From assembly GCF_002775205.1 (NCBI RefSeq), contig NC_036443.1, positions 30,257,717 through 30,321,716 of the forward strand: DNA of 64,000 nt, given 5' to 3'. The position numbers were made by a program, and so were the translations under genes. A model generated the notes under the pieces. It made no database searches. It saw nothing but the letters and a program-made list of their open reading frames with translations, and was not told the DNA's origin. Positions 27,140-56,700 of this stretch are shown here, piece by piece (within the stretch, counting starts at the first letter, position 1; the number at the start of each line of letters is the position of its first letter). The stretch is from Xiphophorus maculatus (Eukaryota > Chordata > Actinopteri > Cyprinodontiformes > Poeciliidae).

Positions 27140-30100
27140 ATGAGCGACCAGCTTCTCCCAGCATCCATCCAGCTCTCCGTCATGCTCTACTCCGCGCTCT
27201 GTGAGTACCCCGACGTTTTAATTCAATCTGCTTTAACTATTTCAATTCTACGGACTGCGGGAGAGAAACACACACGAGGGAAAGTTAAGAGTTTGAAATA
27301 TTTAATGAAAAGTTGTTTATTTTTAACTGTTACTGCACTTCATGCTTTGTTTTGTGGGAATAAGATTTCCCAGTGAAAACTGGGAACTCTGGTCTGTAAC
27401 TGGTGGGTGAAATGTGCAAAGAAGCACAGCTGGAGCTGTTTCCTTCTCAGATTATAAAACTAATAGATAAACAGATCAGTTAGTTTTTAAAAACAAAATT
27501 GTTTAAAAAAGGCGAAAAGAATAACATTTATTATATTTAGCATAAATATCCTGAATTTAAAATGTTCATAAAATCTTTAGCAGTTACAGCAGGATGTCAT
27601 CAGCATACAGTTTATTTTGGGGAACGTGTGCATATATAATAATATAATTTAATTTGATCTAATAAAGAATTCATATCTAATTAGCTTCCTTGACTTTCAT
27701 AGACGATTATAGCAGGACGTCATCAGTATACCAGCTTATTTTAGGGAAGATGTATATAATGTATAATATAATATAATATTGATTTCAAAATGTTAATTCA
27801 TTTGCCAGATGGACATTATTTTGGTTTGGTCATGTGCAGTGGTTTCAGCTCACCACCCTGTGGAACACCACACATTGCTACAATACAAACTAAAAGATAC
27901 AAACAACTTAAATTGGTCATAATTAATCAATTTTAGTGCAATAAACTTTAATAGTAGGATCTAGTGGAGGGGAACTCAACTCTCAGGTCCAATAAAGCAG
28001 GACAGAACATTTTTTCTGCTTTAAATCCCGACTGAAACTCTGGTTGGTTATTGAACATAATCTTTAAAATAAGAATAAATCTCTTTATCAACAGTTCAGT
28101 TTATCATTAATCGATTAACCAAAGAATAAAGGAATTTTATTCTCTAGTCTTCACAACAAATAATTCTTACTATTGGGATCATATGTACATGAATTTATAA
28201 CTAAACTGTCAGCCTGAATGCAGATAGAATATTTTTAATAATTTCCACTGAATCCTGCTGAACTTTCAGCTCATTATGAAAAATCTCACAGCTTTAATAA
28301 AATTTTTTCTCTTCTAGTCCTGGCGGTATCATGTGTGCTGATAACTTCAGGTAAAAAGATGCTCTAAGGCGCGTTGCTCGTTAGTTTTAATTCCTGGTGA
28401 CTGACGGTGTTTTATTTGCAGCTGGCTCCCAGAAGCTTCATGTTGTGGCGTGTGAAGGATCAGTGGCTCAGCTGAAGTGTGGTGAGATCACCGGGTTTGT
28501 TGGTTCTGCTTCTAACTGGAGTTATTATCTTTAGAACGATCCAGAATCAACGCAGCTTCAGTTCTTACAGCTGGAAACCAGAGATCAGGATGAACTCCGA
28601 GCCTTCAGAGCCACATAAAGATGGTTCCAAAACCAGCCTCCTATCACCTGAAGAACATTTTCAGCATTAAAGGACCAGCTGACCCAGAACGCTGCTGCTG
28701 GCGTTCTGACTAAAACCAGGAAGATGGAGCACCTCACCTAGTTCTACATCACCCAGTTCTACAGTCCTTCACTGAGAGAACAGACTTTAAACTACTGCTG
28801 GTAGTTTATAAATCACTGAACGGATTAAAGGCTGCTGCTGGATCAACCTTCCAGACCTCTCAGGTTCTGGTGGTGGTTCTGGAAAAGCAGCATTCAGCTT
28901 CTATGCATCACAAATCTGGAGCAAACGTTCAGAAAACTGAAAAACAGCTGAAACGCTGAGATTCTTTAAATAAAGGCTCAAACCTACCTGCTCATAGTTG
29001 CTTTTGAAACATAATAAATTAAATATTGACCATTATATCTGACATGTATTGACGATTTTGATGATGGCACTCGACAAAATGTAAATTTGTTACTGGCTTC
29101 TTAATTGGTGACTGCATGATGGTTTCATAACTTTTTATTTTTGTATTTTATGATGTAAAGCACTTTGAACTGCCTTGTTTGATTGTTTGGAGCTTAAAAC
29201 GTCCAATGTTTCCAATCCTCTCTGTCAGAGAACGGTGAGGTTATATCTGTGACCAGTGCTACATACGGACGCAGAGACCAGCAGACATGCATCGCTGGAC
29301 GACCCACCAACCAGATAACCAACGTCCAATGCTCCAGGAGCTCAGACAGCGTTGGCCAGAGGTACAGAAGTTCACCTTTTTGTGTAGCAGATAACCAACG
29401 TCCGATGCTCCAGGAGCTTAAGCATCAACCCATTTGGACGTTTTAGAAAATCGTTTGGTACACACATGATCTTTGGGAAGGTGTTTCCCAAAGGCAGCGG
29501 CTCAAATATAGTTGCTGAGAAGTTTAAATGTTTTTGTTGGGGTCAAATTGACTTCCAATGAGATGATTGTGGATTAAATCTCTAATCCTCCTTCACTTGA
29601 ACATCCATCCTCAGCTGCAACGGGAAGCAGAGCTGTTCTATCACAGCATCAAACTCTGTGTTTGGAGATCCCTGCGTTGGAACCTACAAGTACCTGGAGG
29701 TGGAGTACAAATGTGAAAGTAAGTAAAGGTTGAAACACTTGAGATTGGTCAAAATCTCCAAGCAGAGGAGGAAAAATTAAAGTTGTCAATAAGAAGCAAA
29801 GCTCTGAAAATGGAGCTACAAGAACCACGATGTCCTCTGTTAGCTCTCATAGTTAATGTATTTATTTCAATCTGAATGAAAGACGAGAAACAAAATAAAG
29901 CAAGTTTACAATCCTCCTTTCATATTAGAAAACCCCATATTTTAGATTCCTATCCAGTCTTTTTATTACAACTAAAGTCAACTAACATTGTTCTGTGATA
30001 AGATGGAAAAATTGCAATTAATTAAAAAAAAGTCTAATATTATTGTTAGAGTCAGAAAACGCCAGAGAGGGGAGAATGTCACAAGATATCCAGAACAGTG

Positions 30101-33100
30101 GATCCTGACTATTTCTGGATTTTTCGGAGGAACGCTCCAGATAATTTGTGGAAAATTCGCCTGTTGACGTTTTTAATTGTTTCATGTAATATATTTATTT
30201 GAAAGAAAATACAGTTTTGGAAGTTGAAATGCCGAGGAGCAACGCTGCTGGGAGGAAGGATCTTTGTTAAAGCTACTTTGTGAACTTAGGATGGAGACTG
30301 ATCTCTGAGACTCAGTCTGACGTTTTCTAGCATCTGGCTATCATGTTGTTATTTATACATTAATTATTATGATGAACATTCTAAAATCTAGAAATTAATA
30401 TAAAGAAAGTTAATATTTTGTCAGGTAATGAGGGTTTTTGTTGATTGCTTTCTGAACAAATCTGAATAAATCTGTCATTAACTGTGTAAGTGTAAGGTGT
30501 GACCAGAGAGCAAAGCATCATGTGTTTTCTTTACTGTGTTAAAGAACACATGTCGGCCATGTTCCCCATCAGCACCAATGTTTTAACAGCTGGATTATAA
30601 GCAGCTGCCTTCAACCAATAAACCAGTTCAAACATGTGAGAACTGAAGGTGCTGCTGAACGGAGGGCCGGGCTTTCTCCATCCTGTCCATCTCTAACTTT
30701 CTATTCAGGGTCATTAATGTGACCTGGATCTCTCTTATGACAGACCCTGAAAAAAAACCTCAGAGCGGTCCCACTGTGGCATGTGAGGGATCAGTGGCTC
30801 AACTCCAGTGTGGTAAGATCACTGGTTTTACTGGTCAGTTCTGGAGCCTTAAACCAGGAAAATGTCTCTCCAACGTTTCCTCTTCTCTTTGCCAGACGGA
30901 GGAAAGGTTATATCTGTGACCAGTGCTACATACGGACGCAGAGACCAGCAGACATGCATCGCTGGACGACCCACCAACCAGATAACCAACGTCCAATGCT
31001 CCAGGAGCTCAGACAGCGTTGGCCAGAGGTACAGAAGTTCACCTTTTTGTGTAGCAGATAACCAACGCCCGATGCTCCAGGAGCTTAAGCATCAACCCAT
31101 TTGGACGTTTTAGAAAATCGTTTGGTACACACATGATCTTTGGGAAGGTGTTTCCCAAAGGCAGCAGCTCAAATATAGTTGCTGAGAAGTTTAAATGTTT
31201 TTGTTGGGGTCAAATTGACTTCCAAAGAGATGATTGTGGATTAAATCTCTAATCCTCCTTCACTTGAACATCCATCCTCAGCTGCAACGGGAAGCAGAGC
31301 TGTTCTATCACAGCATCAAACTCTGTGTTTGGAGATCCCTGCGTTGGAACCTACAAGTACCTGGAGGTGGAGTACAAATGTGAAAGTAAGTAAAGGTTGA
31401 AACACTTGAGATTGGTCAAAATCTCCAAGCAGAGGAGGAAAAATTAAAGTTGTCAATAAGAAGCAAAGCTCTGAAAATGGAGCTACAAGAACCACGATGT
31501 CCTCTGTTAGCTCTCATAGTTAATGTATTTATTTCAATCTGAATGAAAGACGAGAAACAAAATAAAGCAAGTTTACAATCCTCCTTTCATATTAGAAAAC
31601 CCCATATTTTAGATTCCTATCCAGTCTTTTTATTACAACTAAAGTCAACTAACATTGTTCTGTGATAAGATGGAAAAATTGCAATTAATTAAAAAAAAGT
31701 CTAATATTATTGTTAGAGTCAGAAAACGCCAGAGAGGGGAGAATGTCACAAGATATCCAGAACAGTGGATCCCGACTATTTCTGGATTTTTCGGAGGAAC
31801 GCTCCAGATAATTTGTGGAAAATTCGCCTGTTGACGTTTTTAATTGTTTCATGTAATATATTTATTTGAAAGAAAATACAGTTTTGGAAGTTGAAATGCC
31901 GAGGAGCAACGCTGCTGGGAGGAAGGATCTTTGTTAAAGCTACTTTGTGAACTTAGGATGGAGACTGATCTCTGAGACTCAGTCTGACGTTTTCTAGCAT
32001 CTGGCTATCATGTTGTTATTTATACATTAATTATTATGATCAGTGTTGTATAAAGTACTGAAATCTCAGAGTCAAGTAAAAGTACAAGTACCTCTCCAAA
32101 ATATGACTTTGGTAAAAGTCCAAGTCACTGACTGAAATGTTACTTGAGTAAAAGTCTTAAAGTATCTGAAACTTCTTGTACTTAAGTATGGAAATTACTG
32201 TAAAAATGGATGTACTCAAGTAATGTAATGAAAAGTACAAGTAAAAAGTAAAACAAGGCAAATGCAGTTTGAATGACATTTTTTATATTTTGGTAAACTT
32301 GTCAAATACACTTAAAATAATGTACCCAACCAAGTGCAGGCAAAATTAAACCTGCTAATAGATATACCTGCAGGCATCATTTAGTTAAGAAAATTAGGTG
32401 CTTTACCTATAGCACAAGGTTAACTTAACCTGCTTTACAACTGAACCAGCTTCTTAGTAAACCCTCCAGGACAGAAAATACAAAGTTTTTGTAAACCTTA
32501 AGTTTTCCCTTCAAGTAAGGTCAGTGCTGAAAATGAGAAAAATAAATAGTACAGAAAATGAGGCCAACATGAAGAAAAAGAGCTGTTACGATTACTCTAC
32601 TTCACAAATCAGTGAATCAGTCAATGCTACAGTCAGTAGGTGGTGCACACAACTGGTCATTATGCAAAAGAAAAAAAGAATTGGGAGGGAAATGCAGCTT
32701 ATTGGCATCTGTAAACCTGGTTTTGAACTTGCATGCATTTCCTATATTCGTTAAATTTAGTCTAAATTGCTATCGCTATGGCTTCTGTCCCCCTTGAACA
32801 GAGGAGTCTAGGTAGCCTGTGTTAAGGAAGGAAGTTATTAGGTTAGCTTAAACTTTTGGAAAAAGCATGGCTCTCCTCTCCTCCTGTTAGCCGGGTCGCA
32901 AGTGGATCTCGTCACAGCTGGCAAGGAGACGGCAAGGCACAATGACGTCACAGATCACAGAGTTTAATTCCATACCAAGCAATGAACAACAAAACTGCAG
33001 AGGAACAGAGATATGCATTTTCTCATAAAAATAAAAACACACACAAGGGGTAGACAGACAAACACAGAGACAGACAAAGGCGCCCACGTGGAGAAAAGAT

Positions 33101-36100
33101 GAAAAAACTCTCCCTCTCCGGTGATGACCTGAAACTATAAACCAAAAGGGTGTTTCCCTATTTAATATATGCAGTCAAGGCGTTCCGTTCTTTGACCTAT
33201 TAGAAACTCCGTAGGGACTCAGAAAACTTGGACAGTCCCCTCATTATGGCAAAGGTGTCTGTTTTTTTTTTATCTAAGTAAGAGGGCGGACCACTTCGTG
33301 CCCATCGCTGCCTGATACGGAAGATCCCTGGCGCCAAACGTCCTAAGATGAGATTTCACAGACACCTCCGTAGCCCCCACTCCCATTGGAATGCAAATTT
33401 ATTGCTCTGTTGTGTCAATGGGGGAGGAAAAGGCCCTACTTCCCCCATGCTCCACAGAAAACTGTTCCAAATAAAGTGTTGGCTATCCCTTTACACATGT
33501 CGTAAGATTAAGTGTATTTTTAGCATTAAATAATCATTTTCCTTAACAATCCCCCTTTTGAGGTCTTAATCAAAAGACCTCAATAAAAATTGATTAAGCC
33601 TTCTAATACAGAACCAAAACTATGTATGAAAAAACGAAAAAAACCGAAAAATAAAAAGACAAAAGAGTGACGTACCCTAATTACATACAATCCCCCTTTG
33701 AAACAAAACCCAAGGTGTAGAAAGACTTATCCTTAAAAATGTAAAATCATAAAACAAAATTATCACAATACAACCAAAACACAAGACAAACCAAAAACCC
33801 AAAGTATACAATAAAAAATAAAGCAGGGACATACATATAAAAAACTAGTAAGAAATGCTCTGCAACTTCAAAGACAACATTCATCACAAAATTACAAACG
33901 TCGAACCAAGAAACACACAAAATTACAATCTGCTGCACGTCTTTTCTGTTTTTTTTTTTTTTTTTTTTAATGTCCATCGACAGTCTCTCAAAAAATATGA
34001 AGTCTTCGTCAGAAATTGTTCAAAAAATGCGCGCAAAAAACAAAACGACAGTCCTTTTCAGAGTTCACAACTAACGAAAAAAACACGCAATAAAAGTTTA
34101 TGATGATCCTCTTGCAGCTTGATCTTCTTCGGTCGAAAACCTCAGGCTTCCACCTGAGCGTCCGTTGCTCACTGAAAATGGGATTATTAGGTCAATATTA
34201 CAGAGAGATGTCAAGGAGAAAATGAAATCTCCTCGTGAGGAAACCAAATCTCGTGAAGCGACCTGTCACAGGTTATTAAACAGACATTTTGTTTCAACAT
34301 GAATTTCATTAGCATCAGAAACCCAATTACAACATTCTTTAATATCATCTTCATTAATGTCAGCATAATCAAACGATGGTTTCACCTAAAAATAAATTTG
34401 TTTTGTTATCTTCCATCCAGGGAAATTATTTTAATCCTTTTATCAAAGAACGCAGATTTTGAATGAGACCACATCCGCAGGGCACCAGGAAACCAAACTG
34501 AAACGACAAAACAGAGATCAGATTTGTCCAAGGGCATCATTCATTTGTGTAATCATCACAAACATCTTCAATTCACTGTGTGTTCAAGTGAATCCTCCAA
34601 TGCTCGTGACTCTGTGGCTGCTATCCTCGTAATAAGTGTGAAACCGCTTCTCCAAGCAGCCCCACCCCTGCCTCGCATGACAACAGCTTGTGTGACAGAG
34701 TCCAGAGTCCCACCTGGAGCTTGGAACTCCAGGGCAGTCTGCGTGTAAAACCATGAGCAACACATCACTTGAAACCTTATCTCCTAGTTTGTCCAATTCT
34801 GCTCATCAAATGGTGGATGTGATCCCTTCAATGTACGTTGCTATTATTATATACTATAGCTCCAACCGATGAAAAATACCAAAACCCTGTAATCATTTGC
34901 TTCAAAAGACATGTTTCCAAAGTAACGTTTTCCCAGAATGTTAAACAAATGCAGATCTTTTCTTAAACCAATCTTGTAAAAATAGGATCAAACAAACGAA
35001 ACAAAACAAACACAAAAACCTAAAAATGTAGTTGTAAAGCTTACATTTACCATCAAAAATGAAAATCGCTGTGAATTAAACTGTCCCATTTAAATTACTT
35101 TTATAGAACAAACTAGATCTTATTGGTTATTTATCTAAATCATTTTACATGCGTTCCTTAAACAAAATTCAAAAGAGTTAGACCTGGAGAAATTATAATG
35201 TAAATGTATGCCTTAACAAATCCAAACATTTTCAAAATATACCAATTTTTACCTCGGCTTTTACTTGTCGTCGAATTTAAAGTTTTATTCAAAATCGTTT
35301 TAAATGGATGTAAATCAAAAAATCAAAATCAAGTTTAGAAAAATCATTATAATCCCACCTGTGTACTTTTAGTGATTAGTGATAACTTTAATCAAGAACA
35401 GATTCTTCAAAACATTTCTTAAAACATTCATGCTCCATTAAATTAATGCTCTGAAAATGGCTGACACAATAATATTTTAATTTCTATAGTTATTTTCCCA
35501 AGGTAATTAACCAAAATATGCTTCATTATCACTATAAATTTATCTATTTTCTCAAAATATGTTAGCCCATTGTCAGAAAATCTTTTAATGGAGAACAACT
35601 CAAACCTATTTAAAATAAGCACATATATTACCAGAGAATATCTTTTCCTTTCACTTTTATGTGTAGCACAGATCAGACATGTTCTTCAAAAATTTGTTTA
35701 AGTATTATAAAAGATGAACCCATACATCTTCTCCCCCTTTGATACATTACTGACTAATGTATCACTATTTCTAGTATGTGAAATAACGATGTCGATGAAG
35801 CAGGGTCATTATTTTACTGAGAAATTCTACCCAATACTGCCCCGTCCTAACAGGCAAACTGTCAAAACAAACAGAACAATTTATTATAGCATGCTTTAAA
35901 CCTTCAAGATTGCTATTTTCAAAAAACATTTCACATTACAGTTTTAAAACTCAGTATTCAATTTTACTCTCATGATTATCAAATAATTCGTTGTAGAAAA
36001 CTTCTCAAAAATTTTCTGCAGTGTTTGACAAAGCATGTGTACCAATTAAGACTCTGCGAAGGTTTTGCATAACGAACCAGAGAGACGTTGAAGAAAAAAA

Positions 36101-39100
36101 AAAAAAATTCAAACACAGTTAACAAAGAAAATCCAAAAATAATAAATTGGGCCCCTACTGAAATCAACATAACAAAAAACAACACAGGTAGTAACAGAAC
36201 GACGTAAGCACAAACTGACCTAACAAGACATGAGGGGAACTTAGATAACGGCTGATCAGACCATTAACACACTAAGGGGTAATTAAACACAAAATCCTAA
36301 AATACTGGTCAGTATATCACTAAATCTACAAATGAAAAGAAAGTAAACTAAAGATCAAATTTCCCCCTCCCCCTTTCGGAACAAAATAAGAGGAAACTGG
36401 TAACTCAAAATGAATTCGTGATATTTAACAAAATATAGAAGAACTGACACTTAAAGTTAACTAAATGAGTGCAGAACAAATAGCCAACTAAGGAGTCAGA
36501 CTAATGAAAACAAATTTAAAGATATAAATCTAAACTACTCACTACTCACTATATAAAAGTAATATGAAAGGAAACCAGAAAATCATTACCAAGAGTGTCA
36601 GCGTGTGACAGTTGACTCAGTGTTTTGATGCTAAAAACTTATATTTAACATTTTCCACATTATTCCTTACTCACTATGTATTCGCTTGTTTAAACTATCT
36701 ACTTTAAAGAGAAAATGTTTCACTAAAGCTAGGAAACCAAACCGCATCAAACATCCTGTCTTATGTGATGAGAAAAAACTCTCTACTCCTTCCTATAATC
36801 TATAATGTGAAACAATACCCTAAAATTTAAACAGCCAATCTCTATGTTCCTTAGGAAAAAGAAAAATTAAATCCTTTTGTACTTTTAGATTTCACAATTT
36901 AAATTTGAAAGTCACTACACCAGTCTGAGCAAACTCCATTGTCAGACCATAAAACAAATTCCTAAGCCCACCATAAAACCCCCTTTTCACCTCTCGGAGG
37001 AACTATTTGTATGGCAGGAAAAAGAGCCAATAAGGATTTCAGGAAGAACTCCCAATTCTTTAAATTTATTAGTAGGCTTTGTCAGTGAAAGCATCAGATA
37101 TGTTTTAGTCTCCTTTAATTGTAAAATTTGAACTTAAAAACCCTTTTGTCGTACCATTACAAAAATTGTAAGTTATATTCAGAGAGTTTGTCAGAAGGTA
37201 CTTTAAATGATGGGAGAGACAATGATTTGCCTCACAGCTGCTTGTTCTCCCGTGATGAACTTCTGTGAATGGGGTTGAAACTCCTCCTTGGGCTCCATTA
37301 GTCTCATGTCTAAATAAACATACTTGTCGCTTCTTCTTGTTTTTTGCTATTTATTTATTTTCCTTAATTTTCTTATGTTATTTGCAGCCCTCTCGTCTGT
37401 CTACAGGCACTATTTAATCATCTCTTATTACAGTTTAATATTGATTCTCTACAATAATTCCATATAATGTTTTTTATTAACCAATAAGTTATTTCAAACT
37501 TAATGTTATCCTTCAACAACAAATCTTGTAAATTTTAGCAAACTTTTCTATATTTAACCAATTTCTATTTAACAAGAGAGTGACTTCCAATTTATCCTGT
37601 CTAATTATCCGTAAGTCCTGTAGATTTAACAATATTTTATCTATCTTAAAGTTTTGGTCTGTTTGAAAAAGACTGATTGTGAAAATATCTAGAGTCAGTT
37701 GCATATTGCAGTTTGTTGTTATCTGAACAATTACCGCTTACAGTTAGAGCCTGTTTCTCTAAAAATCTACGTTTTTTCTTATCCTCAACTCATGAAAAAA
37801 GTCCTATTTTACTCATTGTATGTTATTCCATTTTCCTACTACCTTCACAGCCTTAGAAGGAATAATTAACATTATATCCACTATGTAGTTCTCAAGTCTA
37901 TATAAATTTTTATTTAATTTATTTCATTGCTGTACCTAATCAGTTATGTATTTATCTATTCACCCATTCACCATATTTATGTAGTTAACTATTAATTTGC
38001 CAAGACAGCATTTCTACAATCCTCTGTGACCTCATTTTCTTGGCTTATTCTTTCTTATTTTATTTATTTATTTATTCATTTATTTAACCTTAGAACCCAT
38101 AATTTATTTTCAATTTGTTCAGATGATTTATTTTATCAAAATTCTATCCTTTAATCACCTTCCAAACTGTACACTGCAGGTCACACTGCTGTTAATGTTT
38201 AATTTTAATAATTTAGTCCAATTTAACACAGAGGATGTTTGTAAAAACTAGAAATTTTGCACCATAAAACAACACTAAAAATTTCTCTGTATTTATAAGA
38301 CATGAAATACCCAGTGATATTTCATCTCCAATCACACACACTTTCACACCAAAATGAATTGCAACACAATACAAAAACACAAAACATGTTACAGAAAACA
38401 CAAAACACACATCCGGCCAGGTTTCATAGTCAGTCAGAATTTCATCAGTCCCCAAGTGTCAGTCTGTGGTCATTATTCTATCAAATTTTACTGTAATTTA
38501 TATCAATTTTACTAAAGTTTATATGAAATTTACTGAAGCTTCAGGAATTGTCCAATGTTTTATTAACATATTTTCATGTGTCAATTTAATTAATTTTAAA
38601 CTCCAATCGTCAGGAACCTTTTAATTCCCCGTGCACGTTTAAAAAAAATCTCAAAGTTATGTTAAAATCAAACCACAACCAATAATTTTGTTTTCTGGTA
38701 CCAGTTTAATTTACTTAACTGTTATTTTTATTTTATTTATTTATTTTTTAAACTAAACGACCACGTTTTCGCCATCGTTCTACTTTCCCCGTTAAGACGA
38801 ACCCCGACCATAAAATAGCGTATAGCACGTGTCGCAACTCAGTGTCCATAATAACTTCACAATAAAACGCAGCCCAATCAATGCAAATTCACACAAACAG
38901 CGCTATTCAAACAACTTAACACTCTGCTGAAACACACAGCCAGCCCGAACTCGTGCACGCGCACACACACGACCACATACACACATACTCACACAGATAC
39001 ACACGCAAATACACACGCAGATACACACGCAGATACACACGCAGATACACACGCAGAGCTCTGCACGCACACTTCACCCAGAAGAGCCGCTAGCTTCAAA

Positions 39101-42100
39101 AACACCACAAACAGACAAATACAGATAACACTAAACAGAATGATAGACAAATTAGAAAGACAAGAGGAGAAGGAAAACAAAAATACAAAGAAGGCGCCAG
39201 CTAAAAATAAAAATGCAACCTCAAAGCTTACCGCAAGCTTATAATAAGAATTTACCACAAATTCTATCCGTCGGTCTACCCCAGACCTATCTAGTGTACC
39301 ACACACTCAAAGTTTACCACAAACTATAATAAGAATTTACCACAAATTCTATCTGACGGCCTACCTCAGACCTATCTAGTGTACCACACACTAATACTTG
39401 ATTACTATTTCTCAAAATCTAAAGCCTACCCCAGGCTATTTTACCGTAACAGTCTACCTCAGACTATTCAAAGTGTACCACACACTCAAACTAAATTTTA
39501 ATACACAATTTCCTTTCAATTTAGAGGTACAAGACTAAATCCTCAGGGCAAAAGAACAATAATGAAGAAAAACCCAGCCTTTTTGACAATAGGGTAGCAA
39601 ATCCTATGTCCGGAACCGCCACGATCCTCTTGTTTCCTGTGTATTGCAATCCAATCAGTAATTCACTGGCTATTTTAAAGACACAATCTATCTATCTCTG
39701 CAGCTCCGAAAACTCCGCGCGGCTGGATACAGCCACAACAATCCAGCTCGCCTTTTTCCCAGCACACGGCGGTGCAAACAACAAAAGAATAATGAAAAGT
39801 ATCTCACCTCACCGAGCCGAACCAGGCCAACGCGTGACAGAGCCGCCCGCTCAAAATCCGCAACCGAACGAGCCCCCAAATTGTTAAGGAAGGAAGTTAT
39901 TAGGTTAGCTTAAACTTTTGGAAAAAGCATGGCTCTCCTCTCCTCCTGTTAGCCAGGTCGCAAGTGGATCTCGTCACAGCTGGCAAGGAGACGGCAAGGC
40001 ACAATGACGTCACAGATCACAGAGTTTAATTCCATACCAAGCAATGAACAACAAAACTGCAGAGGAACAGAGATATGCATTTTCTCATAAAAATAAAAAC
40101 ACACACAAGGGGTAGACAGACAAACACAGAGACAGACAAAGGCGCCCACGTGGAGAAAAGATGAAAAAACTCTCCCTCTCCGGTGATGACCTGAAACTAT
40201 AAACCAAAAGGGTGTTTCCCTATTTAATATATGCAGTCAAGGCGTTCCGTTCTTTGACCTATTAGAAACTCCGTAGGGACTCAGAAAACTTGGACAGTCC
40301 CCTCATTATGGCAAAGGTGTCTGTTTTTTTTTATCTAAGTAAGAGGGCGGACCACTTCGTGCCCATCGCTGCCTGATACGGAAGATCCCTGGCGCCAAAA
40401 GTCCTAAGATGAGATTTCACAGACACCTCCGTAGCCCCCACTCCCATTGGAATGCAAATTTATTGCTCTGTTGTGTCAATGGGGGAGGAAAAGGCCCTAC
40501 TTCCCCCATGCTCCACAGAAAACTGTTCCAAATAAAGTGTTGGCTATCCCTTTACACATGTCGTAAGATTAAGTGTATTTTTAGCATTAAATAATCATTT
40601 TCCTTAACACCTGCTACAGTCAACATTAGGCCTAAGCTAAATACACCACGTATGGAACTGAAACAATGCCAAACAAAGTTCATTTATGGTCAACGTTTCA
40701 CAATACAGTAGTACCTAGTGACCAAGCTATAGTTACTGAAACAGGAGGATTATAACCATTTCATAAGACGTTACCTCGATGTGTTTCTTCAAGTTGGACG
40801 GGGAGTTTTTGTAAGATAGAATTTCCGCATCTTCGGGCAGGAATAACATAAACTGCATGCGGTACGACGAATCTTTAACACCCACGAAAGAGTATATTGT
40901 GTTTAAATAAGGCCATGGGCTCTCATCACCAGCTGGTGGTTCCCCTGGAGCCGTGTCCGACGTAGTTGCAGTCGTTGTGGTCTCCGTCTCCTCCTCCATG
41001 TGGCTGCTGCTGATTGCGAGACTTGCTTTGTGTTTAATGGGAGAAGCGAAACAGGTGTATCCTATTGGAGGTGATGAACAAGCCCAGGCAAGTAGGCGAC
41101 CTACTTTGTTCGGTAGCCTACTTGCTACTTGCTAATCAGTAGGTGGGGTCAAAACACTTTGCGTTTCTCTCTCTCGCTTTTTTGTAACGAGTAACTAAAC
41201 CACACATTGAAAATGTATCGGAGTAAAAGTACGCAATTAAGTTCGGAAATATAGTGAAGTAAAAGTGAAAGTCATCAAAAATTTTCATACTCCAGGAAAG
41301 TATGAAGTACTCCAAAATATACTTAAGTAAAGTAGTGAAGTATTTTTACTTCGTTACTATACAACACTGATTATGATGAACATTCTAAAATCTAGAAATT
41401 AATATAAAGAAAGTTAATATTTTGTCAGGTAATGAGGGTTTTTGTTGATTGCTTTCTGAACAAATCTGAATAAATCTGTCATTAACTGTGTAAGTGTAAG
41501 GTGTGACCAGAGAGCAAAGCATCATGTGTTTTCTTTACTGTGTTAAAGAACACATGTCGGCCATGTTCCCCATCAGCACCAATGTTTTAACAGCTGGATT
41601 ATAAGCAGCTGCCTTCAACCAATAAACCAGTTCAAACATGTGAGAACTGAAGGTGCTGCTGAACGGAGGGCCGGGCTTTCTCCATCCTGTCCATCTCTAA
41701 CTTTCTATTCAGGGTCATTAATGTGACCTGGATCTCTCTTATGACAGACCCTGAAAAAAAACCTCAGAGCGGTCCCACTGTGGCATGTGAGGGATCAGTG
41801 GCTCAACTCCAGTGTGGTAAGATCACTGGTTTTACTGGTCAGTTCTGGAGCCTTAAACCAGGAAAATGTCTCTCCAACGTTTCCTCTTCTCTTTGCCAGA
41901 CGGAGGAAAGGTTATATCTGTGACCAGTGCTACATACGGACGCAGAGACCAGCAGACATGCATCGCTGGACGACCCACCAACCAGATAACCAACGTCCAA
42001 TGCTCCAGGAGCTCAGACAGCGTTGGCCAGAGGTACAGAAGTTCACCTTTTTGTGTAGCAGATAACCAACGCCCGATGCTCCAGGAGCTTAAGCATCAAC

Positions 42101-45100
42101 CCATTTGGACGTTTTAGAAAATCGTTTGGTACACACATGATCTTTGGGAAGGTGTTTCCCAAAGGCAGCAGCTCAAATATAGTTGCTGAGAAGTTTAAAT
42201 GTTTTTGTTGGGGTCAAATTGACTTCCAAAGAGATGATTGTGGATTAAATCTCTAATCCTCCTTCACTTGAACATCCATCCTCAGCTGCAACGGGAAGCA
42301 GAGCTGTTCTATCACAGCATCAAACTCTGTGTTTGGAGATCCCTGCGTTGGAACCTACAAGTACCTGGAGGTGGAGTACAAATGTGAAAGTAAGTAAAGG
42401 TTGAAACACTTGAGATTGGTCAAAATCTCCAAGCAGAGGAGGAAAAATTAAAGTTGTCAATAAGAAGCAAAGCTCTGAAAATGGAGCTACAAGAACCACG
42501 ATGTCCTCTGTTAGCTCTCATAGTTAATGTATTTATTTCAATCTGAATGAAAGACGAGAAACAAAATAAAGCAAGTTTACAATCCTCCTTTCATATTAGA
42601 AAACCCCATATTTTAGATTCCTATCCAGTCTTTTTATTACAACTAAAGTCAACTAACATTGTTCTGTGATAAGATGGAAAAATTGCAATTAATTAAAAAA
42701 AAGTCTAATATTATTGTTAGAGTCAGAAAACGCCAGAGAGGGGAGAATGTCACAAGATATCCAGAACAGTGGATCCCGACTATTTCTGGATTTTTCGGAG
42801 GAACGCTCCAGATAATTTGTGGAAAATTCGCCTGTTGACGTTTTTAATTGTTTCATGTAATATATTTATTTGAAAGAAAATACAGTTTTGGAAGTTGAAA
42901 TGCCGAGGAGCAACGCTGCTGGGAGGAAGGATCTTTGTTAAAGCTACTTTGTGAACTTAGGATGGAGACTGATCTCTGAGACTCAGTCTGACGTTTTCTA
43001 GCATCTGGCTATCATGTTGTTATTTATACATTAATTATTATGATGAACATTCTAAAATCTAGAAATTAATATAAAGAAAGTTAATATTTTGTCAGGTAAT
43101 GAGGGTTTTTGTTGATTGCTTTCTGAACAAATCTGAATAAATCTGTCATTAACTGTGTAAGTGTAAGGTGTGACCAGAGAGCAAAGCATCATGTGTTTTC
43201 TTTACTGTGTTAAAGAACACATGTCGGCCATGTTCCCCATCAGCACCAATGTTTTAACAGCTGGATTATAAGCAGCTGCCTTCAACCAATAAACCAGTTC
43301 AAACATGTGAGAACTGAAGGTGCTGCTGAACGGAGGGCCGGGCTTTCTCCATCCTGTCCATCTCTAACTTTCTATTCAGGGTCATTAATGTGACCTGGAT
43401 CTCTCTTATGACAGACCCTGAAAAAAAACCTCAGAGCGGTCCCACTGTGGCATGTGAGGGATCAGTGGCTCAACTCCAGTGCGGTAAGATCACTGGTTTT
43501 ACTGGTCAGTTCTGGAGCCTTAAACCAGGAAAATGTCTCTCCAACGTTTCCTCTTCTCTTTGCCAGACGGAGGAAAGGTTATATCTGTGACCAGTGCTAC
43601 ATACGGACGCAGAGACCAGCAGACATGCATCGCTGGACGACCCACCAACCAGATAACCAACGTCCAATGCTCCAGGAGCTCAGACAGCGTTGGCCAGAGG
43701 TACAGAAGTTCACCTTTTTGTGTAGCAGATAACCAACGCCCGATGCTCCAGGAGCTTAAGCATCAACCCATTTGGACGTTTTAGAAAATCGTTTGGTACA
43801 CACATGATCTTTGGGAAGGTGTTTCCCAAAGGCAGCGGCTCAAATATAGTTGCTGAGAAGTTTAAATGTTTTTGTTGGGGTCAAATTGACTTCCAAAGAG
43901 ATGATTGTGGATTAAATCTCTAATCCTCCTTCACTTGAACATCCATCCTCAGCTGCAACGGGAAGCAGAGCTGTTCTATCACAGCATCAAACTCTGTGTT
44001 TGGAGATCCCTGCGTTGGAACCTACAAGTACCTGGAGGTGGAGTACAAATGTGAAAGTAAGTAAAGGTTGAAACACTTGGATTTGACAAAGTCAGGGATG
44101 CAATCAATTAATCAACTGATTAGGTTTATTAGATTTAAATTAGTTAGATTCTTTTAACTCATAATATCCGTTTAGACCAGGGGTGCCCAAAGTGGGTCCT
44201 GGAGGGCCGGTATCCTGCACGTTTTAGTTCTCTCCCTGGTTTTACCAACAACCTTTTCAGCAGGTCAGTGTTCTTCTTAGGCCTCTAACGAGCCGCCATT
44301 GGATCCAGGTGCGTTAAACCAGGGAGAAAACTAAAACATGCAGGATGCCGGGCCTCCAGGACCCACTTTGGTCACCCCTGGTTTAGACCTTCTTTAGTGT
44401 TGTAGTTTGGCCGCCGTCCAGCAGAGGGCGCCGCTGGTCTTCCTAAAACAGCCTGTTGAAAACAGAATTAAAGATGGCGGCCATATCAGAACGGGTAGCG
44501 GTTAAAACACTTTAAATCTGACAGGATCGCAAAAACCTTCACAAAACTTTTAACTTTTTCTCATTTTGTCACACTAAGACCCTTAGGCAACAGGAATCGC
44601 ATCCATTCAGCTTATTGATGAATAAGATTAATAATCTTTAAAGTTTTATGGCACTATCCGGATTACCTGGATTCATTAGCTAAACATGCTAGCAGACGTG
44701 GGTAGTAACTAGTTACATGTAGCTGAGCAACCTTTTGGAAAAGATTTATATTAGGAGTATATTTTTCATTTTAACTATTTTTTATGAGGTTTACTTGAGT
44801 AAAATTTCTGGATCCTCTGCCCTCTGGGAGTAACTTCACTGAATGAAGAAAAAAATTATTCTAAACAAAAATTCACCTGCAGTTTTTCATTAGTTTTTAA
44901 TTTTAGAAATTTGAAAAAATGCTTATTTTGCCTGACTTTGTTATTTTGTAATTATGAATTATATTCATTTTTTATCTTTAAAACACCAAACTTTCCCTGT
45001 AACTTTTGTTTTGGACCGTCTGATGGTGTAATTTTTAAACATTAAATAATCGATGTTTTGATCAGTCGCTCAGTAGTTGAGTCGCCTTTTACCAAATGCA

Positions 45101-47746: not shown

Positions 47747-50700
47747 TCACTCCGTCTGGGGCACGGAGATGCCGGGGCTTTTGGGGTCGTCGAAGCGGTC
47801 CATGGTGAGCAGCTGCATGATCATGTGCAGGCCGTAGGTCAGAACCAGAACCATGAGCAGGCTGGTCAGCAGGCCCATCCAGATCCCAGCCGAGAAAAAC
47901 CCCGCGCAGTCGCTGGCGTACGAGAACTCGCTGCCGCTCAAGCTGAAGCCCTGGATCTGGGAAAATATTAAAATAAAATTATAATCACAATCTGTAAAAA
48001 GATTGATCTCCCTGAGCTGCTATTGCTGCCTGAAGGTGAGCGCCGCCCTAATCTCCAATCTTCAACGTGAAGCCTTTAAAACCACAAAATTAAATCTGAA
48101 TATTTTTCTAGAAAACTCTGGTGCTGACCTTTAAGTTTAAGTTATGATACTTCCAGATCTTCAGTTTCTACATATTTAAAGATTCTCAGCCATCCAGGAC
48201 AAGAAACCCCCCAAAATAAACAATAATAAAAAAGTTTAAAGCAACTTAAGTTATCATTTAAATAACATGACTTGTATTGAAAACCACTGCAATAAATCAA
48301 TATTTATGAGGAATTTTATTAAGTGGAGTTACTCATTAAAACTTGTTTTTATTTAGAGCCTTATGTTTTTTGTAAAGGTGTAGCAGAGATTAGATCTGTG
48401 ACTCTGAACTAAACTCGTATCTAAGCAACATTTGAATGTTAGTTTGACTTCTATGGGTCTCACCAGCTTGTTTACTGAGAAAAACACTCCATTGCTACTT
48501 ACTAGTTATAGTGGCGATTGTTTGTCAAACCAAACATCCAATAAAAAGTTCCAACTGCCACTATGAGGTACTGGGGTCCAGATTCTTCACGCAGGCACAA
48601 AAGTTTAATGTCCAAACTTCTTGATTTTCTTGGTTGCTTTTATTTTCCTTTTCAGCAAAACACTTATAACATTCAAACTTTCCTTTGTTACTCCTATCTA
48701 CTTCTGTCTCTGGTGCCCTGTTGCACTGGTGCTCTGGTAAAAACCATAGGCCCCAAACCCATATGCCTACTTGTCTCTACCAGGCCCCTACACTTATAGA
48801 AAAAATGGACTGATCCACCACACTTCCTGTCTTCAGAAATCAAATAAATAAGAACAAATAATAAAAACAAAAGATAAATAGAATTGACAATTATTAACCT
48901 GCAAATAATACAAAAAACTAGAAATGTAAAAAATAAACTAACAAAATTCAGATGCATAAAGAAATAAAGAATAAATAGCTCCAACACTCCGGCCCCTAAT
49001 TGGGAATACTGTCACAATTACTTAAAAGGAAAAAAGGAGCTATTCCCTCAAACATCTCCTTAATTCCTCAGGGTGATGCTTCCAGCAGCAAAAGAAGTTT
49101 GGTCACAGGTCTTTCCAAAACACTGGTCTTGGTTTGTAATCGCACAGAACGCACCAAGCCTTTTGCGTCCTGGTTTACACTCAAGACTTTGGCCATCATC
49201 CACGATCCTCTTGGGGCTGTAGAGTCTGCAATTAAGACAACATCTCCAGGAGTGAGACATCTTTTAGTTCTTGTCCATTTTTGTCTTTCCTGCATCAAAG
49301 GTAAATACTCAGAAAGCCATCTTTTCCAGAACAGCTCTGCCATGTATTGTACCTGTTTCCACCTTTTCCTGACATACAGATCCTTTTGGTTGAACAGTCC
49401 TGGTGGCAAAACTGGTTTGTTTTTCAGCAACAACAAATGGTTGGGTGTGAGTGACTCAAGATCATTTGAGTCATCTGAAACTTTGGTAATAGGTCTGTTG
49501 TTTAATATGGCTTCAACTTCACAAAAGATTGTTTGAAGTCCTTCATCATCCAAAACTTGTTCTTTAAGAACTGAGACTAAAATGCTTCTTATGGAACGAA
49601 GCAGACGCTCCCAAACTCCACCTTGGTGAGAGGCTGCTGGGATGTTAAAGTTCCATTTGATTCCATCATGCACAAAAGCATTTTGAATTTTAGCATGGTT
49701 CAGTTCAGCCAAACTCTCTTTCAGCTCTCGATTTGCACCAACAAAATTTGTGGCATTATCAGATCTGATGGTGGAAACTGGGCCTCTTCTACAGATGAAC
49801 CTGCGAACTGCATTTATACAGGAATCTGTATCGAGGGTGTATGCAATTTCCAGATGTACTGCACGGCTGGTGAAACAAGTGAACAGAACTCCATACCTTT
49901 TCAGGAGACTTCGTCCTCTTTTAACACTTATAGGACCAAAATAATCCACTCCAACATTTGTGAAGGGAGCAGTGGCTGGCAGAACTCTTTCTTCTGGCAG
50001 ATCTGCCATCTTTTGTTCAATAAACTTTCCTCTGTTACGTCTGCAAACAACACAATGAGAAATTATTTTTCTGGCAGCTGAATTAGCATTTATTATCCAG
50101 TATTTTTGTCTTAACCTTGACAGCATATGAGCTCTTCCTGCATGTCCCAACTGTTGATGAATATGGTGTAAAATGAGGGTAGACATATACATATCCTTTG
50201 TCAAAATTACAGGATGCTTTGCTTCTACAGGCATGGCTGTTTTATTCAACCTGCCACCCACTCTGAGGACCCCAGCATCCAATACTGGGTCAAGTTTGTA
50301 GAGAGAACTTCTCTTGGATACTGTTTTAAGGCCACTAGTGATTAAAGCTATTTCAGTTGTAAATTTCTGTTGTTGTGCAAACTGAATAATAGATAGTTCT
50401 GCCTTGGCCAAGTCTTCAGGAGTCAGATTTTCTTTCTTTAGAGTGGTCTTGAACCTTTCCATCTGCTTTTCCAGTTCCTTCTTTTGGTTTTCTGGATCAT
50501 TTTTATTCAGGTTTGCAGCAGCAAACTCTTTCCTTTTCTGTTGCAGCAACATCAGGATGTTTTTCAACTTTAAAAACCAAGCAACAGAGGTTTTAAGCTT
50601 TGTCCAAGCTGAAAAATAATGAATCAGATAGTTTGTAGCATTTTGTGATTCATTCACAATAACACTCACTGTTAGGTCCCTTTTGACTTCTGGGTCATCT

Positions 50701-53700
50701 GCAGGAATTACATGGTGATCCACCTCCAGTTTAGGCCATTCCTCTTCTGATCTGTGGAGAAATTCAGGCCCATTTATCCATCTCTTGCATTTGAGGAACT
50801 CCTCAGCTTTCATGCCTCTGGATGCATCATCTGCAGGATTCTCCTTGGAGGAAACATATCTCCACTGATTCACATCTGTTGCCTCTCGGATGACAGAGAT
50901 CCTGTTTGCAACAAAGGTGTGAAATCTTCTGGTTTCACTGGAGATGTACTTTAGTACAGTTGTACTATCAGTCCAGAAAACAGGTTTTTCTAACTGTATT
51001 TGCAGCTCTTTTTGCAGCAATTTATTCACTCGGACAGCCAGAACAGCAGCTGTCAATTCCAACCTGGGGATTGTGGTTTGCTTCATAGGAGCAACTCTTG
51101 CTTTTCCTAAAATGAAAGTAACATGTGAGATGTTATTCTTTTCCAGTTTTAAATATGACACTGTTCCATAGCCATCTTGACTTGCGTCAGAGAAATGATG
51201 AAGTTGTGCTTTGTCTGGTTTTCTGATGCAGCTTGGTTTGATGCAACGGTCCACTTTAAAACTGGATATCAGCTGGAGATCCTTCAGCCAATCAAGCCAC
51301 TTCCTAGAAATGGAGTGGGGAATAACTTCGTCCCACTTCAAATTTTGTCGACAAAGTTCTTGTAGCAACAGTTTAGCTGGCATACTGAAGGGAGCCAGGA
51401 TTCCCAAAGGATCATACAATGAGCTGACCACAGACAAAATGCCCCTTCTGGTGTGTGGGCGGTCCTGTGCAGACATTCTGAACTTGAACTCATCTGTTTC
51501 AATGCTCCACTGTAAACCCAGTACTCTCTCAACTGGAAGTTGATCTTTGTCCAAATCCAAATTCTTAATTTCTTTTGCTCTCCTTTCCTCTGGGATTGAC
51601 ATGAGCACCGTGCGACTGTTGCTGACCCATTTTGAAAGCATGAATCCTCCTTTAGAGCAGAGCTCTGTCAGCCTCTTCACCATCTGCACTGCATCTTCTT
51701 CTGTGGGAACAGATTTTAAACAGTCATCCACATAAAAGTTATTTTTGATTGTATCAATCACTTCAGCTGGAAACTGTTGTGCGTTATCATCAGCAGTTCT
51801 TTGCAGAGCATAATTTGCACAGCTGGGTGAAGACACTGCTCCAAATAAATGAACCAACATCCTGAACTCCTGTGCAGGTTTTGAAGCGTCACCATGATGC
51901 CACCACAGGAAACGGAGAAAGTTGACATGTTTTTCAGAGACATAAACTTGGTGAAACATAGCATCAATGTCGGCCATTAGTGCAACAGGTTCTTTTCTAA
52001 ATCTGATGAGAACTCCAACCAGAGAGTTTGTGAGGTCAGGTCCTTGTAGAAGCTGACAGTTCAGTGATGCTCCTTTATAAGTTGATCCACAATCAAATAC
52101 AACTCTTAACTTGCCTTTTGTGGGATGATGCACTCCATGATGAGGAATGTACCACAGTTGTCCATCACCTTTCTGTAGCTCATCTGCTGGTACGGCTTCA
52201 GCATGTCCTTGTTGCAGCATGTTGTTTACACAGGCAGTATATTCCTCTTTGTACTGAGCATCCTTTTCAAATCTCCTCCTGAGACTCTGGAGGCGCTGCT
52301 CTGCAACACAGATGTTATTTGGCAAGCTGGGACTTTCACTCCTGAAAGGTAAGTCAATATGATAATGACTTTCAATAAGTTTTGTTGAGTTATTAACAAT
52401 GTTCATGAAATGCAGATCCTCTCTGGACATTTCAGTTTTCTCCTCTGAGGATCTTTCGTTAAAATCATGATTGTACTGTTTAACCAGCATTTCTTTAAGA
52501 TGCTCAACAGAGATCCTGTTGGCTGTTACAGTAGTGCAGACATTTTTATTTCTGTTGTTGCTTCTAGTGCGTAGAGGACCATTTATGACCCAGCCAACTT
52601 TAGTTTTTACAGCATAAGGCCCACCATCCACACTGTTTATCACCTCCCAGGGCTCTAAAACATTTGAAGCATCAGTTCCTATCAGTAGTTCCACATCTGC
52701 ATTGATGTTATGAAGATTAACAGGTTTAAGATGAGGCCACTGATCAATGTCCTTTTGCTGGGGAATATTCAATGTAGAAACTGGCATGGTACTTTGAGTC
52801 AAAACATCTGGCAACGCTATGAAGTCATTTGTTTTCAATTCAGAGACTTCCAAACCAGACAAAACTTGTACATTAACAATCTTATTTTGATTCATTGTTC
52901 TCAGCAGAATATTTGTCCTTTTGCCCTTTAAGTTCAGACTTTTTGCCAGAGTTTCTGTACAGAACGTACCTGAACTTCCTGGATCAAGAAATGCATATGT
53001 TTGTACAACTTTGTTGCTCTTTTGACTTTTAACTTTAACTGCAACAATAGAAAAAACAGCATCATCATTATGACTGGCCCCAATATGCCCACATGTTTGA
53101 GTGGTTGCAGTTGAAAAGTTGACATGAGACCTTGTTGTCTGTTGGGTTTGTTCTGAAGAGGCTCCTGGCTCCTTTTGCTCTATATGAAGAACCTCTGGAT
53201 GCTTTTGGTGACACACGTTGCAATCCAAACGACTCCTGCAGTCTTTGCTTGTGTGACCAACTTTCAGACAACCAAAACAAATCCCCTTTTGTTTAATGAA
53301 GGTCAACTTGTCCCGATGCATTTTAGCTTTAAACTGCATACAGTTTTCCAATAGATGATTTCTCTGTAAACAAAACAAGCAGCTGTGAAGAACAGTAGAC
53401 TTGATCTTGTTTTCAGTTGAGTGAGTTCTGGCTTCTGGAATTGTGCTGACATTAGTGGCAAAACTGCTTCCTTTTTTCCTTTGCTTGCTGGAACTTGAAA
53501 CTTTAGAGTTGCCCCCAGTTTGTGGGTCTTGGATGTTGCCAAACACTGGATCTGATGCTATTTTTACTTCTTTTATTATAAAAGCAACCAGATCAGTAAA
53601 CAATGCTCGGTGGCCATTTTGTTCCTGCAGCTCATAAGCAGTAACTCTCCATTTTTCCCTCAGTTTGTATGGAAGTTTCAGGACGATCGTTCTCATATTT

Positions 53701-56700
53701 GAAGGTAAGTCCAATTCTTTCATATAAACAATTTGTTGTGTTAAATTTGAACATCCTTGAAGGAAAAGAGAGAATGACTGAAGACTTTTCACATCATCAC
53801 CTTTTATTGGTGTCCAACTCATAATTTTCTCCATATATGCAGAAGCAATTTTATTTTCATTTCCAAAATGTTCTTCAAGAAGATATTTGGCTTTGGAATA
53901 ACCTTGATCAGGAGGTAAGTGCTGACAACTATGCACCAAATCTTTAGGCTGCCCCCTAGTGAACTGCTCTAAGAAGTGCAAACAGTCGTTCCAGTTGTCA
54001 GTTTTAGCTTCCACTCCGTTTTCAAAGGCGTTCATAAATGATCTGTACTGCAGGGGGTCACCATCAAACACAGGGATGTTTCTGGATGGGAGAACAGACG
54101 ATAAGTTTTGTTTTACAAGCAAGGCAGTTATGTCATTTTGTCTCTGCATGATGTTCACAATATCATTCTGACAGTTCTCAGTCAAAGAGGGAGATTGCAA
54201 TTGCTGTATTGCTTGAGTTGAAGAATCAACTTTTACTCTCATCTGATCCATTTGAAGTTGTTTCTGCCTCTGTTTAGGTCTGACGACAGGAGAGTCAGAT
54301 GAAAAATTTGCTCTTTCTTTCGGAACAAACTCATCAGCGCCAGGATTTAGCAGAGGCGTGTCCTTTACTTGGGCTCTTTCAAAATAAGAGTTCATTCCAT
54401 CAGATCGTTGAGAACTAGCAACTGAGTTTATGTTCAAAACATGAAGTTTTGCATTAGTTGCTGCCAACTCTGTTTCCAAGTCAAATTTTTCCTTCTCTTT
54501 TCTCAGTTTTTCCTTTTCTTTTCTCAGTTTTTCCTCTTGAGCTTCGATCAGATGTTTTTTGTCCAACGCGGCCAATCTCTCCATGAGCGCTGCCTTTTCA
54601 GCCGCAGCTTTAATGCGTGCAGAAGAGGTAGATGAAGTCCGAGACTGCTGTGAAGATGTTTTTGAACGTGGCTTTACACTTGAAATATTAGAGACACTGT
54701 CTTCAGGATTTATTTCATCCAGATCTGCAACCTGATCATCATCAACATTATTTTTCCGTTCAGTATATGAATCTCCTGCTTCATGCAACCAAACCTTTAC
54801 ATTGTCCATAAAATCAGAGAATGTCGTCACCTTGGACTGAAAATACACAGATTGCCTTTTCACTTCTTCTTCTGGTAATGGCAAGCTTAAAAAGGATTCA
54901 TGTAAATCGGTTGCATCTTGATAACATTTAATAAACTTGACAAAGTCAGAAGACACTTTCTTAACATTTTCTTGTGACGTCATTAATGCGGAAATTTTCT
55001 CCACTAATTTTGAAGCTTGTTGACACTTTAAACTTCGTTTTTCTTGACATGTTTTTATGTAAAACTCCAAACCCTTTGGTGTGAATTTGATGTTTCTTTT
55101 CTCTCGCGACATCTGAGTGTCATCCTCTTTGCTCTTTATGCTCTTTACATCAGACATTTTTAGCGATTCTTTGAATTATTTCAAACATTTAAAAGCAGCA
55201 TAATCCACAAGGAATCCACAGGACAAAGCACAAACGTGTCTCTTTGTTTAAAGAGGTTGATTCGTGTGAACAAACATTTCCATGATGGGCGTCGGCACAC
55301 GTCTTTATCCAATTAAGCGTCAACTTGTCACATCAAACTCATCTCATCAGTCTTTGCAGTGAAATAATGTCTTTAAACTCCAATAGTTTCACCGTTTTCC
55401 TTTACGGCTTGAACAATATTGCCACGTACCAGCTTGATGAATGAGTGACGTGTCGATCCAGGCCTGACGCTTGATTTCAACGACGATCCAAAACTTTTTG
55501 TTTGATGGTAATCCTTGAGATCCATACATCCAACATGTCCATTAATGCGGGATTATTCCTTTTAGTCCACGAGTTGGTTCCTTACTTGATCCATGGGGAG
55601 GTTTTTACTTGATATAGTGGCGATTGTTTGTCAAACCAAACATCCAATAAAAAGTTCCAACTGCCACTATGAGGTACTGGGGTCCAGATTCTTCACGCAG
55701 GCACAAAAGTTTAATGTCCAAACTTCTTGATTTTCTTGGTTGCTTTTATTTTCCTTTTCAGCAAAACACTTATAACATTCAAACTTTCCTTTGTTACTCC
55801 TATCTACTTCTGTCTCTGGTGCCCTGTTGCACTGGTGCTCTGGTAAAAACCATAGGCCCCAAACCCATATGCCTACTTGTCTCTACCAGGCCCCTACACT
55901 TATAGAAAAAATGGACTGATCCACCACACTTCCTGTCTTCAGAAATCAAATAAATAAGAACAAATAATAAAAACAAAAGATAAATAGAATTGACAATTAT
56001 TAACCTGCAAATAATACAAAAAACTAGAAATGTAAAAAATAAACTAACAAAATTCAGATGCATAAAGAAATAAAGAATAAATAGCTCCAACACTAGTCAT
56101 TTTTGATGGTGCAGCTTGAACACACACAAAGAATTAAACCACATTTTACTGTAACTTTGCCGACCCCCCCAAAAACTTTATGGTTTATGGTCCCCCAATA
56201 ATGAGATGGGATTTACGGCCTCAGGTAAGAGGTTAGCATTTGTGCTAAATAAATGTAATAATTGTGAATAGTGAGTTGATGTTTCTGTATTCTGTAGCAT
56301 TGATGGAAACGTTTGGGAATCTGCGGCCAAACCGACTGAAACTCACCTGAAAGTCGTCGAAGGAGACCCTCCACTGGTTGGCCGGGTCTTTGGCGGAGCG
56401 CGGGACGAGCAGCGGCCAGCGGAAGCTGCTGACGGACTTGCAGCGGTAGGAGTACTCAGCCGGGGCGTAGATGTTCCTGCTGCCGTTGAACGTGGCTTTG
56501 GTGCCGTCGTACTCCAGCTCCACGGCGTCCAGAGTGAACCAGCGGCGCGCCGACACCGTGTAATGGCGCTGGCTCATGACGAAGCTGGAACCAACCGCAA
56601 AACGCGTTTAAAAAAAAACAAGCAAAAAAACAAAATAAAGAATAAAACACAGGCGATCTCAGTCGGGCTGTAACGATTCATCGAATGAGTGGAGAGACTC

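Follow-up and report, generated by a model that had tools for sequence, protein, structure and literature searches.

VL30 elements are packaged by murine leukaemia virus (MLV), and the system described here resembles them in that a noncoding retrovirus-like element is likely mobilised by a gammaretroviral helper; it differs from them in that the leader carries an array of many hairpins with a fixed loop. The array lies in a 64,000-nucleotide stretch of the genome of Xiphophorus maculatus (contig NC_036443.1, positions 30,257,717 to 30,321,716; hereafter the window), within a young noncoding element that has intact long terminal repeats (LTRs). The second system to be considered is the pair of GACG hairpins found in MLV-type leaders (PMC516450). 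This pair (SL-C/SL-D) and the array have in common that small hairpins with a conserved loop are located in a gammaretroviral leader upstream of gag, and that the Gag zinc knuckle and the reverse transcriptase (RT) are related. However, the pair consists of two hairpins with a GACG tetraloop, whereas up to 24 are found here, with other loop sizes and sequences. In fact, a GACG tetraloop closed by at least four Watson-Crick pairs was found in none of the 60 leader stretches analyzed below. Finally, hepatitis B virus (HBV) has core packaging-signal hairpins with -RGAG- loops. These are likewise many, with free stems and one loop motif that is read by the capsid protein, but the HBV sites are dispersed over the genome, whereas those of our element form one tight leader array. 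Going by titles and the openings of abstracts, literature searches listed no paper on an array of fixed-loop hairpins in the leader of a retrovirus or retrotransposon, and none of the three loci given to Rfam matched a known RNA family.

We propose that the array acts in cis as an RNA signal with multiple sites in a gammaretrovirus-like family of fish elements, most likely as a packaging signal that is bound by the nucleocapsid of Gag, and we consider this reading slightly better than an even bet (probability about 0.52). The hairpins were located with a scan for motif and pairing:

39224..39486, minus strand: eleven class A hairpins with the sense loop U-GNGGU-A
Starts of TACCNCA on the plus strand: 39229, 39253, 39277, 39297, 39315, 39338, 39362, 39382, 39427, 39455, 39476

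The number of hairpins, their seven stem sequences, the constant T-A closing pair and the loop ACCNC on the plus strand are as described in an earlier note on this DNA. The motifs span 39229-39482, and ten of the eleven hairpins have 4-6 Watson-Crick pairs beyond the T-A pair. The hairpin at 39362 has one Watson-Crick pair followed by a C-A mismatch on the plus strand, which is G-U in the sense strand; in the sense orientation all eleven have at least four standard pairs. The other 19 TACCNCA motifs of the window (5 on the plus strand, 14 on the minus strand) have 0-2 Watson-Crick pairs, and all motifs of the element itself (11) lie within the array and are not dispersed over the element.

Covariation and strand polarity of the hairpins

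A Blast search of the same genome with the window array yielded 37 matches, which fall at 21 places (L001-L021). A search with a related leader gave 46 matches, from which 20 further places were taken, and hairpin-pattern searches added 19 loci. Covariation and polarity were determined on 60 leader stretches. A 901-bp piece of the noncoding interior yielded 40 copies in 41 pieces, which is a lower bound (40 of 220 candidates were scored), and its matches supplied 16 more leaders, for a total of 76 stretches. In 62 of these both the primer binding site (PBS) and the gag-start motif are present (complete leaders); 14 were set aside.

Class A hairpins were selected by no other criterion than the loop sequence TGNGGTA, starting 120 nt past the PBS or, if there was no PBS, past the start of the stretch. 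The 300 occurrences in 33 of the 60 stretches represent 62 distinct 19-mers. All four stem pairs are standard in 51 of them, where shuffling of the 3' arms gave 17 on average and never more than 27 (2000 shuffles; the hairpins are related repeats, and shuffle results are not probabilities). Of the stem cells 92.7% are paired versus 72.9% after shuffling, cells changed on both sides number 55 versus 16, and the covariation score is 0.734 versus 0.346. With the partners slid by 1-3 columns, pairing was at most 50.0% and covariation at most 0.216. The gag-bearing copies L022-L026 lack class A, and the same slot holds the hairpin GAGU-UGNAUC-ACUC. Other stems of this class B include GAGC-UGAAUC-GCUC and AGGU-UGUAUC-ACCU. 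Among its 57 distinct 18-mers, 87.7% of the cells are paired versus 58.2% shuffled, the covariation score is 0.846 versus 0.274, and slid partners pair in at most 50.9% (about 17 TGNATC occurrences unlike the array hairpins are kept in all class B counts).

The non-Watson-Crick pairs have a clear polarity. In the 51 class A hairpins whose four pairs are standard or A.C, there are 19 G.U and 0 A.C pairs, with an expectation of 29.7:17.3 upon random re-pairing; for all 62 hairpins, broken ones included, the counts are 23 and 1. Class B has 22 G.U and 2 A.C pairs (expectation 15.6:8.6). A class A set in which one loop mismatch was allowed, and which contains many chance sites, gave 8 G.U and 6 A.C. 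The presence of G.U without A.C points to the sense RNA as the paired molecule. A function of the antisense strand was rejected, since the 19 non-Watson-Crick pairs of the 51 hairpins are G.U in the sense and A.C in the antisense strand. Similarly, the paired changes and the G.U polarity led us to reject a palindrome at the DNA level or a mere tandem duplication. The claim that stems which change around a fixed loop reflect selection on RNA structure is thus strongly supported by covariation and polarity over many more copies than the one on which it was based. The same data bear on the idea that the array has no function and is a tandem palindrome duplication spread by slippage during reverse transcription. 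The number of units does differ between near-identical copies (4-9 in arrays with both classes, B/A), but slippage accounts neither for changes that are paired on both sides at all positions of the stem nor for the 19 G.U versus 0 A.C. This idea was already disfavoured and is hardly credible.

A loop-blind tally of the leaders (stems of at least five Watson-Crick pairs, loops of 3-8 nt) was led by GTGGT (81), GGGGT (39) and GAGGT (30), re-counts of the same hairpins aside. B loops with N = A, C or T each occur in it only 4 times, because most B stems are shorter than its cut of five Watson-Crick pairs. The A arrays contain the loop variants GAGGC, GCGGG and UUGGU and a few others, GG being the most constant part; an NGG triloop closed by G-U, as the earlier note had envisaged, is not consistently kept. 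Where N = A, the A loops contain UGAGGUAG, which equals the start of let-7, and the antisense strand reads as let-7 sites, probably a coincidence because N varies. In an 83-nt unit the minor cells amount to 26/308 in the spacer, 15/448 in the stem and 13/392 in the loop, but the comparison of spacer and stem carries little weight, as some of the stem sequence was fixed by the search expression itself; the array zone of L015 was set by hand. The composition of the loops is also relevant to dimer linkage, in which loops would pair between two RNAs. Gammaretroviral GACG loops may take part in dimer formation (PMC516450), and B loops with N = G or C hold a 4-nt palindrome. However, such a palindrome is found neither in GNGGU nor in B loops with N = A or U, and position N of class A takes all four letters, which leaves dimer linkage quite improbable.

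Two hairpin classes in one leader slot

One or both classes were scored in the slot in 61 of the 62 complete leaders. The lone exception (L056) is a scoring error in which the gag start was missed; five B hairpins were counted in it. Class A alone is present in 17 complete leaders, all 17 of which have a noncoding start, with 3-24 hairpins. Class B is found in 32 (22 with a noncoding and 10 with a gag-like start) and B/A in 12 (5 noncoding, 7 gag-like), where in the gag-like leaders L027, L028 and L034 the frames at the gag start comprise just 35-111 aa. The earlier note held that other copies lacking the array would contradict its claim. Literally such copies exist, as many carry UGNAUC in the same place, but not in the spirit of the argument. 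In the genome-wide searches, a pattern of two neighbouring RRYY-type A hairpins gave at least 113 matches versus 0 for the reversed pattern, and among the matches listed all places were in L001-L021 or L039. Two neighbouring B hairpins gave at least 146 matches versus 2 in the control.

A further subfamily has a 43-nt unit, in which a B hairpin alternates with UUC-UGUGGUA-GAA. The near-identical copies L047-L054, L057, L065 and L084 differ in the number of this unit (4-9), which suggests that the array grows and contracts rapidly. Beside the first B-like hairpin lies another conserved one, GGAGA-CUGACUCA-UCUCC; it was observed in 13 leader loci, and also in L074 at PBS+415. The alternation of classes argues against a splicing decoy, in which UGNG-GUA loops would mimic a donor and hold the U1 small nuclear ribonucleoprotein or mask cryptic donors. 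Although the A loops resemble the nearby donor-like TGCG-GTAAGA, the B loops (UGNAUC) are without the donor core G-GUA, yet are found in that slot as well, and a single array can have A and B loops in alternation. We therefore regard a decoy as very improbable.

A short Gag-like frame can accompany class A. The set-aside stretch L011 has an A array of 11 hairpins followed by a gag-like start, and L090 (G000:C7:911600-915100 with L011) has an open frame of 265 residues from stop to stop with the knuckle CFYCGEDGHWVRQC, followed by noncoding landmarks of the family. This copy perhaps represents a stage between elements with gag and those that are noncoding. Of the 16 later leaders 10 are complete, and all of these are B or B/A and none A-only; as the 16 derive from interior copies that were still unread, the copies with A arrays having been read earlier, the missing A-only leaders say little. 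An A array lies within 10 kb of 16 of the 40 interior copies; in two cases, at distances of 6.7 and 9.3 kb, it may belong to another copy. In a tree built from the 330 nt that follow the PBS (54 rows, with class labels set by hand) the class changes 7 times, the least possible number being 2, and the hairpin classes thus seem to swap between leaders.

Gag-bearing relatives and the packaging reading

The gag-bearing relatives are gammaretrovirus-like, in view of their Gag knuckle and an RT that is related to that of MLV. Their Gag has one CCHC knuckle; for L027 and L028 no zinc knuckle was found within the stretches that were read. The knuckle is CLYCGEEGHWVRQC in six stretches of B-class copies. 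Six stretches of B/A copies have CFYCGEEGHWVQQC, as does L045, which comes from the B/A-like locus L033. L090, with an A array, and L091, belonging to the B leader L034, both have CFYCGEDGHWVRQC. The nearest solved nucleocapsid sequences are the p10 entries 1a6b (E 8e-4) and 1u6p (E 9e-4). For the RT of one copy (L072) the nearest is 4hkq (E 2e-75), which we take to be xenotropic MLV-related virus (XMRV), followed by other p80 RTs and the RT of Moloney MLV (1mml, 1e-47). Gag, stop and protease are in a single frame in these relatives, and the protease was not seen in the stretch of L045. A public protein search with Gag returned four fish proteins (Xiphias, Xiphophorus, Nerophis and Echeneis). 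In a collection of viral contigs the exact array patterns had no match; five stretches matched a pattern for Gag relatives and none was confirmed.

Two sequences that resemble splice sites flank the array:

39800..39812, minus strand: splice-donor-like GTGAG|GTGAGATA (from sequence)
39201..39218, minus strand: splice-acceptor-like U-rich tract ending in AG, directly downstream of the array (from sequence)

A donor-like site of this kind is present in 37 of 41 loci and, in a second set, in 8 of 19; within that set the L047 group has, by eye, a different donor-like site. The acceptor-like AG is not kept in every copy (L020 has TTGG).

A packaging signal could work as follows. Each hairpin would show one fixed loop, the sequence of the stem hardly mattering provided that pairing holds, and Gag would bind the loops via its single zinc knuckle. 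Being located between the donor-like and the acceptor-like site, the array would be carried by unspliced RNA only, and a position behind the donor-like site agrees with a role in unspliced RNA. The window element, being noncoding, would depend for its packaging on Gag from a gag-bearing relative whose LTR is similar. The array need not serve the translation of gag, because noncoding copies keep and vary it. The exact A and B loops all open with U-G. The single knuckle of Moloney MLV binds a UCUG linker, with the guanosine in a cleft (PMC7599994).

Packaging by the nucleocapsid of a helper, as put forward in the earlier note, is the best available explanation because the gag-bearing relatives share the slot, the same type of PBS and, in one group, most of the LTR end. 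More specifically, the last 90 nt of the window LTR are 87-91% identical to those of the B/A gag-bearing copies L047, L051, L052, L053, L057 and L065, which have the same PBS; the other gag-bearing copies show 78-85% over 61-67 nt. A gag-bearing helper for the window element is likely. In contrast to the picture in the earlier note, the likely helper has alternating UGNAUC and UGUGGUA hairpins and not an A-only array.

The main rival is a signal for RNA export or intron retention, where a host protein binds the repeated hairpins and takes the unspliced RNA from the nucleus. It agrees with the location between the donor-like and acceptor-like sites, with the retention of the array in elements that encode nothing, and with the repetition of sites for one protein, as would fit a loop-reading host factor. 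Nevertheless, two loop classes that swap within one host genome are more readily understood if the partner is viral and evolves fast than if it is an unchanging host protein, and the result with Rfam also counts against it. We consider export somewhat unlikely.

Several results weigh against packaging. Isolated packaging hairpins are not bound by the nucleocapsid of Moloney MLV (PMC7599994). Folded globally, the sense array does not surpass its shuffles (z -0.84), but the antisense array does (z -6.34). With a pairing span of 30 nt, the window array has z -3.15 in the sense, with 9 of 11 hairpins formed, and z -6.57 in the antisense strand. Four other A arrays have sense values of z -1.69 to -4.87, the antisense being lower in all five arrays, and three control stretches have z -0.90 to -2.03. 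In the B and B/A arrays the sense energy does not stand out from shuffles (z -0.87 to +1.79). Owing to the abundance of G and U in the sense strand the shuffles fold well, and the case for the hairpins rests on covariation and polarity, not on energy. Moreover, a link between the type of knuckle and the class of hairpin was rejected, as A- and B-class copies share CFYCGEDGHWVRQC. Finally, over the 330 nt after the PBS the window element is 73-74% identical to B/A and 77-79% to B gag-bearing copies; this conflicts with the LTR-end identities, and the leader thus does not point to the helper suggested by the LTR end.

A related proposal is that of a packaging-site code in rapid turnover. Within one retroviral lineage, the loop words UGNGGUA and UGNAUC would be interchangeable in a dedicated leader slot, with the Gag of the element itself as their reader, and long A-only arrays would be the means by which noncoding parasites outcompete the helper for packaging. 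We consider it unlikely, having lowered its odds slightly because the knuckle type does not track the hairpin class. The usual retroviral packaging signals are compact and hard to dissect, whereas here there are dozens of fixed-loop hairpins with free stems, in two classes that seem to swap. If Gag reads these hairpins, the loops would define the recognition element directly, and the noncoding copies would show how a parasite could compete for packaging.

Structure and surroundings of the window element

The element extends from 32820 to 40609 on the minus strand, with an interior of 6333 bp:

39882..40609, minus strand: 5' LTR, 728 bp, 99.6% identical to 32820-33548
32820..33548, minus strand: 3' LTR, 729 bp (from the comparison of the LTR pair)
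32816..32819, no strand: target site duplication CCTG (other copy 40610-40613)
39861..39878, minus strand: PBS TGGGGGCTCGTTCGGTTG, tRNA-Pro type
33549..33560, minus strand: polypurine tract CAAAAGGGGGAT
38748..38849, minus strand: 33-codon open frame MDTELRHVLYA..., with a start in common with the gag start of the coding relatives

The LTRs are bounded by TG...CA and the target duplication is 4 bp, as in class I endogenous retroviruses (ERVs); the PBS presumably corresponds to tRNA-Pro. A second polypurine tract, CAAAGGGGGATTG (33688-33700), about 140 bp upstream of the 3' LTR, resembles the main one. The host of the array is indeed the leader of a young noncoding retrovirus-like element, as the earlier note had it, with near-identical LTRs and a longest sense open reading frame (ORF) at chance level. 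This ORF has 105 aa, where single-base shuffles gave a mean of 83 and a 95th percentile of 112. The element has 61 ORFs of at least 45 aa, counting both strands, and a Pfam search with 10 sense ORF translations of the interior gave no family at its cut-off.

The ERV is placed between two stretches of a tandem 1667-bp duplication with about 99% identity (29202-32040 and 41358-44093). A second LTR element, at 48499-56094 of the window, has ends of 490 bp that are 99.6% identical and a single open frame of 2035 aa. In this frame Pfam recognised a Pao peptidase, an RT and an integrase, which makes it a BEL/Pao element that looks intact and is unrelated to the array.
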